Source: a virus. Taken from it: a DNA stretch of 60,379 bases. The position numbers and the translations under genes were made by a program. The stretch covers positions 1 through 60,379 of the IMG/VR virus record IMGVR_UViG_3300043331_000752; one strand, 5' to 3'. Numbering within the stretch: the stretch's first letter is position 1; every line of letters starts with the position of its first letter. Shown here piece by piece: positions 8,033 to 26,300 of this stretch. The notes below the pieces were generated by a model. It was not told the DNA's origin, made no database searches, and saw only the letters and a list, made by a program, of their open reading frames with translations.

Positions 8033-9109
8033 CTATTCCTCGAACCCGATGGCGCGCCGCGGCTTCGCGGTCAGCATCGGGGCGATGGCGGCCTTGATTG
8101 CGGCGAACCCGGCCTGCACGGTGCGCCGGACGTCCGCGCGCTCGCGGATCGTCTCCGGGTCCACGCCCGTCATTAGGAGGCGCGCGCGCTCCACGAGGGC
8201 GGCGAGCGCGCCGTCCTCGGTCAGGTTGCGGGCGCGGAACGTGTCGAGGAACTCCTTGACCCGGGCCAGCGACGAATCGCGGAAGACCTGCGGCTTGCCG
8301 TTCGCGCGGTCGGTCATCTTGTCGACCATCTCGTCCACGACCTCGCTCATGGCGACGCGCAGCGCGGTCTGCACGTCCTCGAACGCGTCCGCCATGCTGC
8401 GCTCGAACTCCTGCGCCGCGCGGCTGGCGAGCGCGCCGCTGATGCGGGCGAGCTGGGCGTCCGGCACGCCGAACGCGATGTAGGACCACCGAAAATCGAA
8501 GAACCGCTCGACGACGTCGGGCGACGGGTACTCGTCCGGGTTGAAGTGCGGGCCGAGGCGCTGGCGGGCGTCCTCCTGCAGGCGCGGGTACGCGGCGACG
8601 AACGCCGCGACGAGCGGCCGGCGCTGCGCCACGAACGCGGTGAGCGTCGCGTCCACCTCGGCGACGAGCCCGAGCCCGAGCAGGTAGACGCCGTGCCGGA
8701 AGAACGTCGCGGGCAGCGCCTTCTGGTAGATGTACCGGCGCGCGTCGTTGTCCAGGCGGCGGATGGCCTGGAGCGCGTCGGACTCGAGGATGATCTTGGC
8801 GACGCGGATCATGTCCTTGTCGGCCTCCACTTCGACGGCGTCCGTGCTGAGGCGCCGCCGCGTGCCGAGCCGGGACATCGTGACGGACAGGCAGACCGCG
8901 CGCTGCAACAGCTCCAGGCCGCCGCGCGGCGCCTCGGGCGCGGGCATCGCCGCGCGCGCGGCCCCGTCGGGGTCCGTGCCGTTCTGCATCGCGGCCACGC
9001 GGGCCGCGCGCTTGACCGCGACGCGCTGGCGGGAGCCGGCGCGGTCGAACTCGGGCGACGTCGGACGCCGGGCGGGCGCGGGTGTCGTCGACTTCGTCTT
9101 GGTGGCCAT
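8033..9109 (-). CDS. DUF3150-like protein
   Basis: 358 residues. After a low-complexity N-terminus, a conserved-looking core runs from VTMSRLGTRRRLS through a helical middle with YLLGLGLVAEVD to YPSPDVVERFFDFRWSYIAF (residues about 80-215). This resembles DUF3150, a family seen with AAA+ ATPases in plasmids and phages. The role is unknown. It closes the cassette that begins with the Ycf46-like ATPase at 12224. Family assignment is from memory of the pattern and is moderate. Confidence 0.6.
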   Translation of the reverse strand: MATKTKSTTPAPARRPTSPEFDRAGSRQRVAVKRAARVAAMQNGTDPDGAARAAMPAPEAPRGGLELLQRAVCLSVTMSRLGTRRRLSTDAVEVEADKDMIRVAKIILESDALQAIRRLDNDARRYIYQKALPATFFRHGVYLLGLGLVAEVDATLTAFVAQRRPLVAAFVAAYPRLQEDARQRLGPHFNPDEYPSPDVVERFFDFRWSYIAFGVPDAQLARISGALASRAAQEFERSMADAFEDVQTALRVAMSEVVDEMVDKMTDRANGKPQVFRDSSLARVKEFLDTFRARNLTEDGALAALVERARLLMTGVDPETIRERADVRRTVQAGFAAIKAAIAPMLTAKPRRAIGFEE

Positions 9110-9159: not shown

Positions 9160-9390
9160 TTAGTGGGTGTGCGTCTCGAATCCGTCGTGGGTGTGGGAGT
9201 GGCCCGCGTCCGCGTCGTGGGTGTGCGGACGCGCCTCCGGCCGGCGCGTCGTCGTGGTCGTGCCGCCCTGGAGCGTGCGCATCTGCGCCAGGAAGGCGTC
9301 CGCGTTGGCGTGGTTGGGCGCGGACACGTCATCCGTCTCCGTCTTGATCGAGCCGTCGCGCAGGAGCGTCAGGCGAATCCGGTCAGCCAT
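9160..9390 (-). CDS. DUF2997-like small protein with His-rich tail
   Basis: 76 residues. The N-terminal half (MADRIRLTLLRDGSIKTETD, then H..ADAFLAQM) matches DUF2997: a short beta segment with the DG turn, a histidine and a helix. The C-terminal half is unusual: about 25 residues rich in His, Thr and Asp (HTHDADAGHSHTHD), probably metal-binding. DUF2997 genes commonly neighbour DUF1257 and Ycf46-like ATPase genes, as here. Confidence 0.6.
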   Translation of the reverse strand: MADRIRLTLLRDGSIKTETDDVSAPNHANADAFLAQMRTLQGGTTTTTRRPEARPHTHDADAGHSHTHDGFETHTH

Positions 9391-9681: not shown

Positions 9682-10053
9682 TCACTCCTCCCGGACGAGG
9701 ACCAGCGTCGTCTCGCCGTCTGCGGTCGTTTCTTCCTCGACGGCCCACCCGTGCTGCGCCGCCGAGAACCCGACGACGATCCGGGCATAGGCCGTCTTGA
9801 GGGACGTGATGATCTCCGCGCGGCGCGCCTCCGTGACGCCCGCGACGGTGACGAGGTCCGCCCCGATGGCGACGCGCGCGCCGTCCGGGGTGGTGAACAG
9901 GACGCCGTCGGGCACGGGCTCGCCCGAGCGGTGGCGGTACACGGGCTGGCGCGTCGCGTGGACCCCGAACCGGTCGTAGATCGCGGCCAGCAAGAGGTCG
10001 CGCTGCGCCGCCTCCAATTTCGCGGTGGTGCGGCTCACAGTCCAACAGGGCAT
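9682..10053 (-). CDS. DUF1257 (Ycf35)-like protein
   Basis: 123 residues. The N-terminus MPCWTVSRTTAKLEAAQRDL leads into LLLAAIYDRFG, and the C-terminal part has YARIVVGFSAAQHGWAVEEE followed by a beta strand. This layout resembles DUF1257/Ycf35, often encoded next to DUF2997 and Ycf46-type ATPases in cyanobacteria, plastids and phages. Function unknown. The similarity is weak in the middle, so the assignment rests partly on the neighbours. Confidence 0.55.
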   Translation of the reverse strand: MPCWTVSRTTAKLEAAQRDLLLAAIYDRFGVHATRQPVYRHRSGEPVPDGVLFTTPDGARVAIGADLVTVAGVTEARRAEIITSLKTAYARIVVGFSAAQHGWAVEEETTADGETTLVLVREE

Positions 10054-10284: not shown

Positions 10285-10689
10285 TCAGACGCCCTCCGCC
10301 GGCGCGGGCACGATCCGGTGGATCTCCTGCAGCCGCTCGAACTCCGAGAACTCCAGCGCCGGGTGCATCCCGGACGCATAGCGCGCCGTCTGCCAGCTGT
10401 ACTGCGCGGGATGAATGCGGACCTTCCGCCACCGCTGCCCGCGCGTGTCGAGCCACGCGGTGTCCTCGGTGACGGTCCCGAAGCCGTCATAGACGACGGG
10501 CGCGGTCGTGTAGCGCGTCGCGCGGCCCTCCACGCGATACAGCGCCTCGCGGAGGTCGGTCAGCCGCTCGGCGAGGACGTCCGCCATCGCGCGCTCGCGC
10601 GCGCCGTGGCTCCGCGCCAGAGCCGCCTGCGTCTCGTCGAGCGCGGCGAACAGGGAGTGGATCAGGTCGAGGGTCGCCGACGTGGACAT
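10285..10689 (-). CDS. Unknown protein downstream of the AAA ATPase
   Basis: 134 residues, starting just after the ATPase stop. A helical N-terminus (residues 1-55) is followed by a beta-rich segment with WLDTRGQRWRKVRIHPAQYS. No family recognised. Its spot between the ATPase and the DUF1257-like gene suggests that it belongs to the same functional group. Confidence 0.6.
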   Translation of the reverse strand: MSTSATLDLIHSLFAALDETQAALARSHGARERAMADVLAERLTDLREALYRVEGRATRYTTAPVVYDGFGTVTEDTAWLDTRGQRWRKVRIHPAQYSWQTARYASGMHPALEFSEFERLQEIHRIVPAPAEGV

Positions 10690-10691
10690 GG

Positions 10692-12224
10692 CTACTCCCT
10701 CCCCGCGAGCGCGCGCCGCGTCGTCGGGCGCGCACCGCTGCTGGTCGTCAAGGTGCGGCTGTACACACCGGGCGTGGACGCGGACAGGAACCGGCCGGCG
10801 GCCTGCCCGCGCAGGCGCTCGATGGTGTCCGCGTCGCTCTTGGCGATTGGCACCACGTAGGCCGCCGCGTCGAGCAACGACGCCCCCAGCGCGTGGGCGT
10901 TGTCCACGCAATTCCGGACGTCCGCGCCCGTCCAGTCCGTGTCGTCGGGCCGCGGCTGCGTCGGGTCCACCGACGAGTAGCGCGCGAGCGTGAGCCTCCA
11001 GATGGCGCTCAATTCCTCCCGCGTGGGCAGGTCGAAGTACCACAGGCCGCCACGCTGGAAACGGCGGCGCACCTCGGGCTTGAGGACGGCCAGGTCATTG
11101 CACGTCGCGGCGAACAGCGCGCCGCCCGGGCCCGCGAGCGAGTAGATCATCTTGAACAGCGCCCGAATGCGGGCCTCGGAGCCGCCCACGTAGCGGTCCG
11201 CCGTCGCGTTCAGGTCCGCGACGACGCCGAGCGTGTCGAACTCCACGGAGAGCGCGGTCGTGAGGAACGTCTTGCCGGTGCCGGGCGCGCCGAGGGCGAG
11301 GAACCCGACGTAGTCGCGGTCCTCCATCTCGCGGCAAATGACGCCCAGCCGGTCCTTGGCGGTGCCCGACGAGTCGCCCTCGCCGGCGGTGCCGCCCATC
11401 ATCTTCTCGAACTCGTCCAGCCGGACGATCAGACGCGGCCGGCGCGGGCCGGCGAAGTAGCGGCGCGCCCACTCCTTGAAGGCCGCGTTCCCGCCGATGG
11501 CGTCGAACCCGACGCGGCCTCGGTCGACGGCGAGCCCGGGCGTGGCCTCGATCGCCACGCGACGCCGCTCGCGCAGATCCGCGATGTCCAGCCCGGTGGA
11601 CCGGACGGCCATCGCCACCACCTGTTCCACGGACGACTCGGACAGGAGCCCGCGCACGGAGTCGACAGCGCGGGCGACGGTCGCGGGCGGCGTGTCGTCG
11701 CCCGCGACGTCTTGGACGACGCGCGTCAGCGTCGCGTCGTCCGGGGCCGGCTCGTCCAGCATGACGACGTCCGGCGCCAGCTCGGGCGTGAACGTGAACG
11801 CCGGGCCGAGGAGCACCACCGTGCGCGGCGCGGGCTTGCCCGTCTCCGCGTCGCGCGTGCCCTTGAGGGCGTCGCGAAGGTTCCAGAGCGCCTGCGCCGG
11901 GCCGGGCGGGTCGCTCGGGCTGAAGTGGCGGTGGGCGTGGACGAGGAACAGCACGCTGCGCGGCAACATCTTGGGCGCGCTCATCAGGACCTCGGCGAGC
12001 TTGGCCCCGACGGGCGGCACGCCGAGCGAGGCGACCAGCGCCTCGCCGCGCCCGGTGACGGGCCGGAGGCCGCCCGCGATGTCCCACGCGGCGGCGGCGG
12101 TCTCGCCGTTCAAGGCCTCGACCAGCCGCGCTATCGTCGCGGTCGCGTCGGGCGTCGTGATGGCGAGGAGCGGCGTGTCGGCGTTGCGGGCGTGTTTGAA
12201 CGTGGTGACGAGGTCGCTGGACAT
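10692..12224 (-). CDS. Ycf46-like AAA+ ATPase with permuted motif order
   Basis: 510 residues from ATG 12224 (AAGGAG nine bases upstream). An ATGA-linked start at 12299 would add 25 Pro-rich residues. Residues 1-235 match the N-terminal Ycf46 region, an ATPase-like remnant with VLLGPAFTFTPELAPDVVML. The AAA+ core begins at GFDAIGGNAAFKEWARR (239-255), but next comes LIVRLDEFEKMMGG (265-278) and GDSSGT (283-288), normally the Walker B block; Walker A GAPGTGKT is later, at 312-319. Then YVGGSE (345-350), ATCND (373-377, sensor 1) and RRRF (386-389, arginine finger) follow in normal order. All key residues are present, so an active ATPase is likely. Confidence 0.85.
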   Translation of the reverse strand: MSSDLVTTFKHARNADTPLLAITTPDATATIARLVEALNGETAAAAWDIAGGLRPVTGRGEALVASLGVPPVGAKLAEVLMSAPKMLPRSVLFLVHAHRHFSPSDPPGPAQALWNLRDALKGTRDAETGKPAPRTVVLLGPAFTFTPELAPDVVMLDEPAPDDATLTRVVQDVAGDDTPPATVARAVDSVRGLLSESSVEQVVAMAVRSTGLDIADLRERRRVAIEATPGLAVDRGRVGFDAIGGNAAFKEWARRYFAGPRRPRLIVRLDEFEKMMGGTAGEGDSSGTAKDRLGVICREMEDRDYVGFLALGAPGTGKTFLTTALSVEFDTLGVVADLNATADRYVGGSEARIRALFKMIYSLAGPGGALFAATCNDLAVLKPEVRRRFQRGGLWYFDLPTREELSAIWRLTLARYSSVDPTQPRPDDTDWTGADVRNCVDNAHALGASLLDAAAYVVPIAKSDADTIERLRGQAAGRFLSASTPGVYSRTLTTSSGARPTTRRALAGRE

Positions 12225-15711: not shown

Positions 15712-15945
15712 TTACAGCCCTTGCAGCGAGACGGGCGAGCCGTCGTCGTCGTCGTCGGGATCGACGCCGACCTCGCTCAGCCGGACGACGCCGGCGCGCG
15801 GGTGGACGCGCGCGTGCGGGAGCGCGAGCGGATCGTGCGGGAACGTGATGACGGCGGCATCATCGCCCACGGTGACGCGCACGACGAGGGCGCGCGCCGT
15901 CGAAATCAGGCTGACTGCAAAGTGCCGGTCGTGCGCAGCAGGCAT
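15712..15945 (-). CDS. Small protein of unknown function
   Basis: 77 residues. ATG 15945 has AGGAG eight bases upstream and lies inside the end of the ABC-GNAT gene (40-base overlap). Beta-rich, with a five-aspartate run near the C-terminus (DPDDDDDGSP). Last gene of the early operon. No family recognised. Confidence 0.55.
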   Translation of the reverse strand: MPAAHDRHFAVSLISTARALVVRVTVGDDAAVITFPHDPLALPHARVHPRAGVVRLSEVGVDPDDDDDGSPVSLQGL

Positions 15946-17048
15946 TCCACGCGCTCCTGATCCGGCTCGGCCGGACCGATGTATGCGAACACGGCATTCG
16001 GACGCCCGCCGAAGTAGCCGTGCAGATTCTTCTTCGGCGTCGTCCAATTGGGCGTCGACCACTGCCCCGGACGCTTGACGCACGCCCATCGGGGCGACGT
16101 CGCGAACGAACGGATCAAGGCCGGGTGCGCCGGGTACGTGTGGACGCGCAGCCCGCGCGCCTTGTAACAGGCGCCCAGCAGGTCGATCAGCACCAGCGCG
16201 AGCCCGAGCCCTTGCCAGTCGGGCAACGTGACGAGCCGCGAGCAGCCCCAGATGTCGGTCACTTTCGGGTGAGGCCGGTACATCATGCCGGCGAACGACG
16301 CCGGCTGCCCGTTCACGGCGAGGACGTAACACTTGGCGCCGCGATGGAGCGACGCCGTCAGATAGTGAAACCGACGAAACACGTCCCAGGCCCCGTGGGG
16401 CACCCGCGCCACTTCGACGTTGAGCCGGGGGCGGGGTTGAACCGACCTCCGGCTGAACGTCAGCGTGGCGGGCTCGAGGAGCCAATCGGGCTGGAGCCAG
16501 TCGACGACGTCGTAGTGGCACGTCGCCGCCACGAACTGCCGGCCGGGCGTCCGACGCACCCATTTCTGGACCGCGTGCGCGCCGATCTTCGCCACCTGGC
16601 GGTCGACCACGGACGTGAACTCGTCGACGACGATCGGTGTCTCGGCAGGCGTCTCCAGAAGCCGGCGCGCCAGCTCGACGCGGAACCGTTCGCCGTTGGA
16701 GAGCACGGCATAGGGGCGCATCCAGGCTGGGATGGTGTTGAACCCGACCGCCTGACAGACTGCGCTGATCGCGTCCATCGTCTGCGCGCGGTCGAAGTCG
16801 TCGACGACCGCCTTGGCGTCCCACGTGAGATCGCGCGGCGCGCCGAACAGCGCCCGGAGCAGCGTGGACTTGCCCGACCCGGACGGCCCGACCAAGAGCC
16901 CCAGCTGCCAGGGCTCGGCCTCGATCGGCGCCTCGCCGGCCCACTCCAGACGCGACGTCGTCGCCAGCGGGACGTCGAAAAGAGCCGCGAGTTGCTTAAC
17001 CCTGGCGCTTTGGGACAGCGGGGTTTCAACCGCCACGTCAATCTTCAT
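15906..17048 (-). CDS. ABC-type ATPase fused to a GNAT acetyltransferase fold
   Basis: 380 residues, ATG 17048 with AGAGGAG. Residues 1-200 are a small ABC-class ATPase without membrane parts: Walker A GPSGSGKS at 54-61, signature LSNGERFRVELARRL at 116-130, Walker B IVVDEF at 139-144 and H-loop H178. Residues about 205-360 look like a GNAT domain: FRRFHYLTASLHRG at its start, a strand with CSRLVTLP and the acetyl-CoA loop WQGLGLA (278-284). No transporter subunit is nearby. The layout recalls Mom-type DNA-modifying GNAT proteins, but that is inference. Confidence 0.8.
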   Translation of the reverse strand: MKIDVAVETPLSQSARVKQLAALFDVPLATTSRLEWAGEAPIEAEPWQLGLLVGPSGSGKSTLLRALFGAPRDLTWDAKAVVDDFDRAQTMDAISAVCQAVGFNTIPAWMRPYAVLSNGERFRVELARRLLETPAETPIVVDEFTSVVDRQVAKIGAHAVQKWVRRTPGRQFVAATCHYDVVDWLQPDWLLEPATLTFSRRSVQPRPRLNVEVARVPHGAWDVFRRFHYLTASLHRGAKCYVLAVNGQPASFAGMMYRPHPKVTDIWGCSRLVTLPDWQGLGLALVLIDLLGACYKARGLRVHTYPAHPALIRSFATSPRWACVKRPGQWSTPNWTTPKKNLHGYFGGRPNAVFAYIGPAEPDQERVECLLRTTGTLQSA

Positions 17049-24099: not shown

Positions 24100-25581
24100 C
24101 TACTTCGTCTTCGATGTCGCGGTCGACTTCGTCGCCGCGCGACGCGGCGTGGTCTTGACGGGCTCGGGCGCCGGAGCCGGGGGGACGTGTTTCGTCACGT
24201 CAAACCCCAGGCGTTTGGCGATGGCCGGGAATCGGTCGACCGCATCCCAGCGACGCGTCAGATCCATGAGCGCGTGGAACGCGGCGAGCCGCACGACGTC
24301 CGCCGCGCCGTCGCCCGGCGCGACCATCCTGACGAGATCCGGCGCCAGCGTGCGCCCGTCGAGCAGGATCGCCGCCAACGGGGTACCGACCCCCGCCGGC
24401 AGCGTGCGCACGTGTTTGCCGAGCGCCCGGCACAGGCCCGGTCGCGCGGTCTCCCATCGTCGGCGCGCGGCGGCCTCGCGCTCGCGTTCGGCGACGTCGG
24501 CCGCGCGCTGCTTGGCGTAGCGATCGTCCGCCGTGCGCGCCTTCGCGCTCTCGATCGACCGCGCTTGGGACGCCTTCTGCTCCGCCGCCCAATGCGCCTT
24601 ACAGGCTTTCTTCTCGATGCAGACGCGCACCGTCTGCCCGCGCGCGAACCCGACGACGAAGACGCCCGTCACGGCGCGCGCACAGGTCGGGTGCCCCTTG
24701 CTGCCATCGGCGCGCTTCCACGAACGCGGGCCGTACACGCGTTGCCCGTCGCGCGCCTCGGGCTGAATGAAGTGGTCGTGCGTGATCGGCACGACGCGCT
24801 CGGCGCGCTCGGTCGCCTGCGCCACCGCGCGCGCGGTCTCAGGGAACAGCTCGCCGTCCACCGTGTCGGGCGTGACCTTCACGTGCTGATCGATCCACGC
24901 CGCCAGCTCGCGGACGCTAATCGCGCGGACGGAGTCGGCTTGTGCGGTGGGGGCGTCGGGATCGTAGAGCAGCGTTTCCGGACGGAACAGCGGGGTGTCG
25001 GCGCGAGAGCCTTTGCGTCCCACCAGAGATTTCTGGACGTCCGGGCTCACGCGCGCCAGCAAGATCGCGTGCCCGAGCGTGAGCGTGCCGTCCGTCACGA
25101 GCGCCCGCGCCTCGCCGATCAAGCCGAGCAACGCGAGCCGATCCACCACGTACCGGACGGGACGGCCGACGCGCGCCGCGACGCGGGCGACGGACTGCCC
25201 GGCTGCCAGGAGCGTCCGGTAGCCCTCGGCTTCGTCCAGCGGCGAGAGCCCCTGACGTTGCAAATTCGCGACGAGCGCGATCTCGTGCGCCTCCGTGGGC
25301 GACGCGGTCACGACGCGCACCGGCACGCGCTCGAGCCGCAGCGCCCGCGCCACTTTCAGCCGGCGATGGCCGTCCAACACCGTGTACGTCGCGTCACCAT
25401 TCGCGACGACCAACAGCGGCACCAGCACCCCGTGCGTGGACACCGACTCGCTCAACGCCCGCTCCGCGGGCTCGCTGTCGGGCGTGATCGTCTCGCGGAC
25501 ATTGCCGTTGGTCGTGAGCGCGCTCACCGGCACCTCGGGGGCGTCGAGCGCGCGCGCAGCGGTCGAGACGGACTCTGTCAT
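24100..25581 (-). CDS. Large ParB/Spo0J-like protein
   Basis: 493 residues from ATG 25581 (ATGA overlap). ParB domain: VPVSALTTNGNVRETI and DATYTVLDGHRRLKVARAL at about 14-90; helix-turn-helix region LQRQGLSPLDEAEGYRTLLA, then VGRPVRYVVDRLALLG to about 180. A cysteine-rich insert (HPTCARAVTG; CIEKKACKAHW) around 280-320 may bind metal. The C-terminus is Lys/Ala/Thr-rich. Plasmid-like partition is possible but no ParA is encoded, so a regulatory or replication role next to DnaC is more likely. Confidence 0.85.
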   Translation of the reverse strand: MTESVSTAARALDAPEVPVSALTTNGNVRETITPDSEPAERALSESVSTHGVLVPLLVVANGDATYTVLDGHRRLKVARALRLERVPVRVVTASPTEAHEIALVANLQRQGLSPLDEAEGYRTLLAAGQSVARVAARVGRPVRYVVDRLALLGLIGEARALVTDGTLTLGHAILLARVSPDVQKSLVGRKGSRADTPLFRPETLLYDPDAPTAQADSVRAISVRELAAWIDQHVKVTPDTVDGELFPETARAVAQATERAERVVPITHDHFIQPEARDGQRVYGPRSWKRADGSKGHPTCARAVTGVFVVGFARGQTVRVCIEKKACKAHWAAEQKASQARSIESAKARTADDRYAKQRAADVAEREREAAARRRWETARPGLCRALGKHVRTLPAGVGTPLAAILLDGRTLAPDLVRMVAPGDGAADVVRLAAFHALMDLTRRWDAVDRFPAIAKRLGFDVTKHVPPAPAPEPVKTTPRRAATKSTATSKTK

Positions 25582-26300
25582 CGAGAGACTCCTTTCTTGC
25601 GCGAAGACGCGACGGGGGCCGCCGTCGCTCGGCGAGCGCGGAGACTCGCGCCCGGCAATTCGTAGACGCGGCCCCAGGCGCGCCAGCGATCGATCGTGCG
25701 ATCGGTGACGCGCGCCTTGAGCTGCTCGGTCGTCAGATTCGTCGTGAACACCGTGGGCCGACATTCCGCCTCGCGGGTCCAGATCACTTCGTCGATCTGC
25801 CCCTCCAGATACGAGCCGGCGGCTTTGATGTATTCGGCGCCGAAGTCGTCGCACACCAGCACCGGCGTGTGCAGCGCGAGCGCGCGCGCCTCCGCGCGCC
25901 GATCGGGGTCCATGAGCATCGCGCAGAGCGCCGGGAAGTAGACAAAGCGCCGCCCGATCGGCGGCACCTGCAACAGGCCCCACGCGGCCGCGTAGGTCTT
26001 CCCGATGCCGGTCGGGCCACAGAGCACGACGCAGTCGCCCGCGTCGCGCCCGCTCGCGAGCCACGTCCGCATGGCGGCGAGCGCGGGCGTGTCGGCGACC
26101 GCCGGGGCCGCCTGCCCCACCGTGCCGATCAGTTCGCCCCGGAGTCGGAGCGGAATGCCCACGCGTTCCGCCACGGACAGCGCGTGCGAGCGGGCACGCT
26201 GCTCGACCTCGTCGGAGCTTGACGCGTCTGCGACGACCTCGCGCCCGCGCAGGTGCGCCAACACCGTGTCCACGACCGTGGCGACCGGCGTGGCCGTCAC
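25578..26300 (-). CDS. DnaC-like helicase loader
   Basis: 240 residues from GTG 26300 (GTGA overlap). Walker A CGPTGIGKT at 94-102, Walker B VLVCDDFG at 147-154 and sensor 1 TVFTTNLTTEQL. The N-terminal helical part is short. It should load the host replicative helicase at the phage origin together with the upstream initiator; the pair mirrors lambda O/P or DnaD/DnaC-type modules. No phage helicase is seen in the window. Confidence 0.85.
   Translation of the reverse strand: MTATPVATVVDTVLAHLRGREVVADASSSDEVEQRARSHALSVAERVGIPLRLRGELIGTVGQAAPAVADTPALAAMRTWLASGRDAGDCVVLCGPTGIGKTYAAAWGLLQVPPIGRRFVYFPALCAMLMDPDRRAEARALALHTPVLVCDDFGAEYIKAAGSYLEGQIDEVIWTREAECRPTVFTTNLTTEQLKARVTDRTIDRWRAWGRVYELPGASLRARRATAAPVASSRKKGVSR

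Follow-up and report, generated by a model that had tools for sequence, protein, structure and literature searches.

Ycf46-like ATPases of bacterial viruses with a non-circularly permuted AAA+ catalytic core

In a Ycf46-like ATPase encoded by a tailed phage, the AAA+ catalytic core has undergone a natural permutation of the non-circular kind, for which no earlier description was found: the strand and helix that carry the Walker B motif precede the P-loop (Walker A) in the protein chain. The swap is not peculiar to this protein, but is a fixed feature of a large clade of bacterial viruses, most of them uncultivated. The gene lies in a 60-kb viral record, the whole of which (60,379 nucleotides) was analysed and is termed the ‘window’ here, and its product is in all likelihood an active ATPase of the classical type (the activity being predicted) in which two core blocks have changed places. 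Few enzymes are commoner than AAA+ motors, and to our knowledge the order of their motifs along the chain has so far been treated as fixed, an order that motif scanners and order-dependent structure searches likewise assume.

When positions 10692 to 12224 are read on the minus strand, reverse translation yields an uninterrupted Ycf46-like AAA+ protein of 510 residues, whereas the plus-strand reading of the same interval gives a meaningless translation. The motif order can be read directly from the minus-strand product: LIVRLDEFEK (residues 265 to 274) and GDSSGT (ending at residue 288) are followed by GAPGTGKT (312 to 319), GGSE (347 to 350), the sensor 1 motif ATCND (373 to 377) and the arginine finger RRRF (386 to 389). 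The chain accordingly passes through Walker B, a helix, Walker A, the pore loop with its GGSE, sensor 1 and the arginine finger; in place of the usual AAA+ succession (P-loop, b2, Walker B, sensor 1) it runs Walker B, P-loop, b2, sensor 1 (Table 1). An initial annotation, made from the sequence alone, had already placed Walker B ahead of Walker A, and its residue numbers are exact; the strand, which it did not give, is the minus strand.

Table 1. Features of the permuted ATPase and of the genes beside it (window coordinates)
Feature	Position	Strand	Remarks
Swapped Ycf46-like AAA+ ATPase, 510 aa	10692..12224	-	stop codon 10692-10694
Segment A, residues 1-260: N-terminal domain and a0 linker with IGG motif	11445..12224	-	strand/helix pattern
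Segment C, residues 261-303: b3 with Walker B (LIVRLDEFEK) and a3, before the P-loop	11316..11444	-	
Walker B, residues 265-274	11403..11432	-	D270, E271, K274 invariant (122/122)
Segment B, residues 304-367: b1, P-loop, a1, b2, pore-loop-1-like YVGGSE, a2	11124..11315	-	
Walker A GAPGTGKT, residues 312-319	11268..11291	-	G312, G315, K318 invariant; 319 always S/T
Pore-loop-1-like YVGGSE, residues 345-350	11175..11192	-	G347 invariant
Segment D, residues 368-490: b4 sensor 1, Arg finger, b5, helical lid	10755..11123	-	
Sensor 1 ATCND, residues 373-377	11094..11108	-	T374, N376 invariant
Arg finger RRRF, residues 386-389	11058..11069	-	R388 invariant
134-aa gene directly downstream of the ATPase	10285..10689	-	
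DUF1257 (Ycf35)-like protein, distant	9682..10038	-	Pfam DUF1257 E=0.052, below cut-off
DUF2997-like protein, distant, His-rich tail	9160..9390	-	cluster profile E=5.9e-27
DUF3150-like partner, 358 aa, mostly helical	8033..9109	-	

The departure from the rest of the AAA+ superfamily is one of connectivity only, and homology to the superfamily is established independently. Walker A, Walker B, the sensor 1 asparagine, the arginine finger and the helical lid are all present, and the Pfam AAA model (PF00004) matches the protein above its cut-off (E=1.3e-7), over residues 309 to 362 only. That this model covers the P-loop block alone is expected if the usual second half of the domain lies elsewhere than the model requires; a sequence search of the PDB also covers only about 60 residues.

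Relatives were gathered from viral contigs, from the contigs of bacterial (metagenome-assembled) genomes, or MAGs, and from the cultured Tunturiibacter phage Tunturi_3. The family alignment was cut into the four segments of Table 1, and a profile made from each was placed in every relative. The order A-C-B-D was found in 122 of 133 distinct relatives, the window protein counted, at identities to that protein of mostly 33-43%; the remainder comprise two fragments with C-B-D, one fragment with D alone, and eight full-length proteins with the ordinary order A-B-C-D. The initial annotation had expected similar phage proteins to exist, and had proposed a search for homologues of the same order, an expectation borne out by these 122 proteins, which include gp103 from the complete genome of Tunturi_3. 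As the window comes from one metagenomic viral contig only, an assembly chimera, a frameshift or a chance motif match in an ordinary, misread AAA+ protein could be suspected, but the frame is open throughout, and such an artefact is refuted by the recurrence of the order in 122 distinct proteins, whose sources include many metagenomes and MAGs, and in the genome of a cultured phage.

Within the genome collection, the swapped relatives come mainly from Acidobacteriota, and also from Deltaproteobacteria and Nitrospira. Only three of the 297 Acidobacteriota genomes searched contain the gene, a rarity that is expected of phage genes; a terminase match is present in four viral records, other than the window, that encode the swapped ATPase. 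One Acidobacteria MAG contig (G002:C67, probably JAFKEE010000023.1, 301 kb) holds genes for two distinct swapped ATPases, separated by about 127 kb; a profile search of that contig gave no Terminase_6N match, and it is possibly a large mobile element.

The eight ordinary-order proteins consist of two of the Corndogvirus gp95 type, two from Planctomycete MAGs (L110 and L111) and four from plasmids of Manganitrophus, Thermovibrio, Geminocystis and Treponema. The B, C and D profiles match all eight with E-values from 1e-7 to 1e-41, so that the pieces are homologous and differ in order alone. Segment A is also detected in ordinary-order relatives, and all four segments, the N-terminal domain included, thus place the window protein in the Ycf46-like family; the name Ycf46 itself is one that we take to be appropriate from the BFVD/UniProt names of structural matches. 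The segment profiles revealed further ordinary-order relatives in other genomes and plasmids and in additional phages (Pseudomonas phage SM1, Rhizobium phage L338C, Rhodobacter phage RcKickapoo, Aeromonas phage HJ05 and a Vibrio phage).

With segments A and D in place and only B and C exchanged, the rearrangement is not a circular permutation. It is very probably an exchange of the adjacent blocks C (b3, Walker B and a3) and B (b1, P-loop, a1, b2 and a2), cut at strand boundaries, which is equivalent to one block having moved past the other. Where the initial annotation had about 50 residues moving in front of the P-loop, the relocation holds and the length is slightly smaller, the moved piece being about 43 residues (261 to 303). 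For the tree of homologues that it had also proposed, all sequences were rearranged into the ordinary block order, and an IQ-TREE analysis was made of 65 sequences, plastid Ycf46 not being included. The swapped proteins group in a single clade (UFBoot 100; FastTree 1.0) nested within the ordinary-order family, with the two Planctomycete MAG proteins as sisters (UFBoot 99; FastTree 0.94) and the Manganitrophus and Thermovibrio plasmid proteins next out (100; 0.998), and the unmoved segments alone give the same picture. This nesting implies that the ordinary order is ancestral and that, most simply, the swap arose once.

It might be supposed instead that the Walker B block was grafted from a different AAA+ protein and the original deleted, as the C block is short and a tree made from C only does not resolve the swapped clade. 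However, C carries the pattern DEIEK...(D/G)SG(T/V)...LGxxLTWMQ of the ordinary-order relatives, in all of which the C profile finds its segment, and a tree of the B and C blocks alone keeps the swapped clade (support 0.87). Moreover, identity to the two sister proteins is similar for B, C and D (about 38-40%, with a mean of 37.6% for C), which favours an internal exchange and makes a graft very unlikely. The internal exchange could have come about if B-C was duplicated in tandem and the outermost B and C were then lost, leaving A-C-B-D; no partly duplicated intermediate (A-B-C-B-D and the like) occurs among the 133 relatives, and the duplication route is thus unproven.

The active site has remained complete throughout. 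D270, E271, K274, G312, G315, K318, G347, T374, N376 and R388 are identical in every one of the 122 swapped proteins, position 319 is always serine or threonine, and V346 and S349 are nearly constant. The claim that every catalytic residue was kept is thereby upheld, and such invariance at identities of mostly 33-43% indicates that the whole active site, along with the pore-loop-1 region, is under strong purifying selection. A degenerate scaffold that does not hydrolyse ATP, and that could tolerate the permutation because its function had been lost, would be compatible with an N-terminal domain that lacks a P-loop and with the residue at P-loop position 317, which is other than glycine in 74 of the 122 proteins (alanine in 61, serine in 12, cysteine in one) and glycine in the window protein. 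MoxR-type ATPases, however, are active with alanine at that position, and the Walker A lysine and serine or threonine, the Walker B aspartate and glutamate, the sensor 1 asparagine and the arginine finger are invariant at about 35-40% identity, which renders a degenerate scaffold highly improbable.

Structure prediction, also proposed in the initial annotation, yielded a confident AlphaFold2 model (81-sequence alignment; mean pLDDT 93.8, pTM 0.89) with core strands at residues 265-269, 306-312, 332-336, 369-375 and 394-397, together with the helices of the lid. A single helix (a2, 346-367) leads straight into the sensor 1 strand, such that the GSE and ATCND blocks join directly, as had been claimed; the model has no extra strand between them, and hence no place for the second, conventional Walker B that would have overturned the permutation reading. 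The arrangement of the sheet was addressed through coevolution among the 122 swapped sequences (Neff 103), which was scored for ten possible strand pairs. The top four (b1-b5, b3-b4, b2-b3 and b1-b4) are the neighbours in the canonical 5-1-4-3-2 sheet, and the strongest single strand-to-strand pair, L269-F371, joins b3 to b4. Coevolution thereby sets the DEFEK strand between the sensor 1 strand and b2, in the Walker B position, and agrees with the predicted secondary structure on a canonical sheet with b3 beside b4; on this evidence the other outcome named in the initial annotation as overturning the permutation, a DEFEK block outside the Walker B position, did not arise either. In subsamples of 80% of the sequences the exact canonical set was recovered in 31 of 60, with a mean overlap of 3.5 of 4 pairs as opposed to 1.7 of 4 in column-shuffled controls; at this Neff the support is good, imperfect and not perfectly stable, and it favours the canonical sheet. 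Residues of the IGG motif, before a0, also couple to P-loop residue 317, a link that an intact nucleotide pocket would lead one to expect. Ordinary-order homologues, a confident structure prediction and coevolution all support the permutation.

Since coevolution cannot separate contacts within a subunit from those between subunits, the early b3-a3 block could conceivably fill the Walker B position of a neighbouring subunit in a ring. Such a strand exchange is extremely unlikely, given the confident monomer model and the span of about three residues between the end of a3 (302) and the start of b1 (306), which keeps the block near its own sheet. The chain would instead re-thread the same 5-1-4-3-2 sheet, with a0 leading to b3 and not b1, a3 to b1 and not b4, and a2 to b4 and not b3, a possibility that stems from the location of all three new joints in sheet-edge loops before a strand. 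Reasoning from the fold, any order of strand-helix units can in principle be threaded at the edge of the sheet, and two of the new crossovers skip one strand. The fold is apparently unchanged by the permutation.

Comparison of the model with solved structures, using the order-dependent program Foldseek, returned tandem AAA+ proteins (p97, Rix7, Cdc48 and NVL), with alignments long enough for both halves; TMq was about 0.5 to p97, Rix7 and NVL, and for viral Ycf46-like models it did not exceed 0.66. The matches to tandem proteins, the succession of strands and helices in residues 1-230 and the lack of a P-loop in that part suggest that the N-terminal domain, too, is probably an AAA+ module, one that has degenerated.

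The ATPase gene belongs to a conserved multi-gene module, and the same operon partners are present on either side of the swap event. Among the 122 swapped loci a DUF3150-like partner is found at 108, a DUF2997-type gene at 109 and a DUF1257-type gene at 103, and a gene resembling a radical-SAM activating enzyme occurs at 18. The genomic link of Ycf46-like proteins to DUF1257 (Ycf35) and DUF2997 holds in the window as well, where both are distant members identified by profile comparison only: the DUF1257-like protein matches its cluster profile at E=7.5e-12, and this cluster aligns to a clear DUF1257 cluster (hhalign probability 92%, E 8.5e-7), as does that of the DUF2997-like protein to a clear DUF2997 cluster (83%, E 9e-6). 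The cluster of the DUF2997-like window protein spans 21 loci, and the histidine-rich tail of the window member (HTHDADAGHSHTHDGFETHTH), which is possibly metal-binding, has a counterpart in the member from locus L032. Pfam DUF3150 recognises 31 of the 71 proteins in the partner family, with a best value of 4e-9, the window copy not among them; the window partner is modelled confidently over most of its length (pLDDT 85.5), and a structure comparison gave no PDB match for its fold at E<=0.001. The 134-residue protein has no Pfam or PHROG match. Across genomes of the phylum of G004, DUF3150 was found in one of 113, at the locus already known. One Tunturi_3 gene (L007:15603-16562) is labelled an HNH endonuclease, an annotation that looks wrong; its product falls in the DUF3150-like partner family (profile E=8e-101).

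Ordinary-order relatives keep similar company. The Manganitrophus plasmid has the series AAA-DUF1257-DUF2997-DUF3150 and a Paenibacillus plasmid AAA-DUF1257-DUF2997-4Fe4S; cyanobacterial plasmids with ordinary-order relatives share the partner set, and DUF1257 and DUF2997 adjoin four ordinary-order phage proteins. In the cultured phages SM1, L338C, RcKickapoo and HJ05 (L216, L217, L218 and L220) the nearby DUF1257- and DUF2997-type genes are annotated as hypothetical. A duf2997-ycf35-fed7 cluster is on record in cyanobacteria (PMC4284462), and in red-algal plastids the presence of ycf35 and that of ycf46 follow habitat in parallel (PMC5940233).

The swapped ATPase would form a hexamer that hydrolyses ATP at its subunit interfaces and pulls or remodels protein by way of pore loop 1, a catalytic cycle that the permuted connectivity need not alter. 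We tentatively suggest, as a proposal of somewhat less than even likelihood, that this AAA+ ring remodels a protein substrate and that the DUF3150-, DUF1257- and DUF2997-like proteins are its adaptors or clients; the same partners probably act as adaptors or substrates for the ordinary-order relatives. In some lineages the client may be an iron-sulphur or redox protein, as is hinted by the recurrence of ferredoxin or radical-SAM genes nearby. A role in phage DNA replication (as a helicase or in clamp loading) in place of protein remodelling is unlikely: DnaB-like helicase genes, named from sequence and not by a family search, lie near some relatives (for example, an ORF in L003), but the pore-loop-1-like V-G-x-S-E is conserved, the closest solved relatives are p97, Rix7, katanin and Vps4, the constant partners are of the DUF1257, DUF2997 and DUF3150 types, and the window encodes a separate IstB/DnaC-like protein (25578-26300).

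That protein is one of a set of recognisable phage genes in the window, which include those for terminase, portal, head morphogenesis, scaffold, tape measure, exonuclease, integrase, a recombination directionality factor and ParB. A general link between the module and packaging genes is not claimed, as in profile-search counts the window's terminase and portal went unrecognised near the other loci. The ParB-like gene (24100-25581, minus strand) adjoins that of the IstB-like ATPase, and Corndogviruses with an ordinary-order ATPase have a ParB-like gene nearby too. Elsewhere on the minus strand, 15906-17048 combines an ABC-type ATPase part with a C-terminal part like a GNAT acetyltransferase (Pfam ABC_tran 9e-8, Acetyltransf_7 9e-4), with a similar ORF in the close relative L001 (907-2493), and 19094-19723 encodes a DUF5131 protein (E=9e-67), a similar gene being present near several other swapped loci.

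An order broken once, with catalytic residues kept and with unswapped sisters that have the same operon partners, provides a ‘natural experiment’ on which connections of the motor matter for folding and coupling. The re-wired links (from a2 to the sensor 1 strand, and from a3 to the P-loop strand) might conceivably change the coupling of hydrolysis to substrate movement and have been selected for it, so that the phage machine works differently from ordinary Ycf46-like proteins, although we regard this as doubtful. The permutation also exposes a blind spot, in that Pfam AAA and the PDB sequence search catch only part of a swapped protein. The initial annotation knew of no account of such a permutation, and our own search of the open-access literature, where absence is not proof, likewise found no description of permuted or circularly permuted AAA+ proteins, its matches concerning methylases, capsid folds or RNA; a paper on Tunturiibacter phages contains none either.

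Among the known systems, the IetA and SgiA antitoxins of mobile elements, which are of the SpoVK/Ycf46/Vps4 type and are paired with serine-protease toxins (PMC10954446), are distant AAA relatives; the scanned neighbours of the window gene gave no match to a subtilisin-like serine protease. The Ycf46-like ATPases (plastid and cyanobacterial Ycf46 and their plasmid and phage relatives, among them L110/L111, the Manganitrophus plasmid protein, Mycobacterium phage Dylan gp95 and Pseudomonas phage SM1 gp26) share all four homologous segments and the same catalytic residues with the swapped proteins, and most also share the DUF1257/DUF2997 neighbours; they differ in the order of the two core blocks, and the DUF3150-like partner, almost constant beside the swapped proteins, accompanies only some of them. 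Classical AAA proteins (p97/Cdc48, Rix7, NVL, Vps4 and katanin) resemble the window protein in Walker A, pore loop 1, sensor 1, arginine finger and, by fold comparison, tandem-domain architecture, but their Walker B follows the P-loop and they are not permuted. Circularly permuted GTPases of the RsgA/YlqF type are P-loop NTPases that have retained activity with a changed motif order; theirs are circular permutations, whereas the window protein is an ASCE ATPase with an internal exchange. Non-circular permutations are known, and rare, in other folds: DNA methyltransferases and the HK97-fold capsid protein of phage BPP-1 have exchanged adjacent blocks and kept the fold, as here, in folds unrelated to that of the AAA+ core (PMC5701804).
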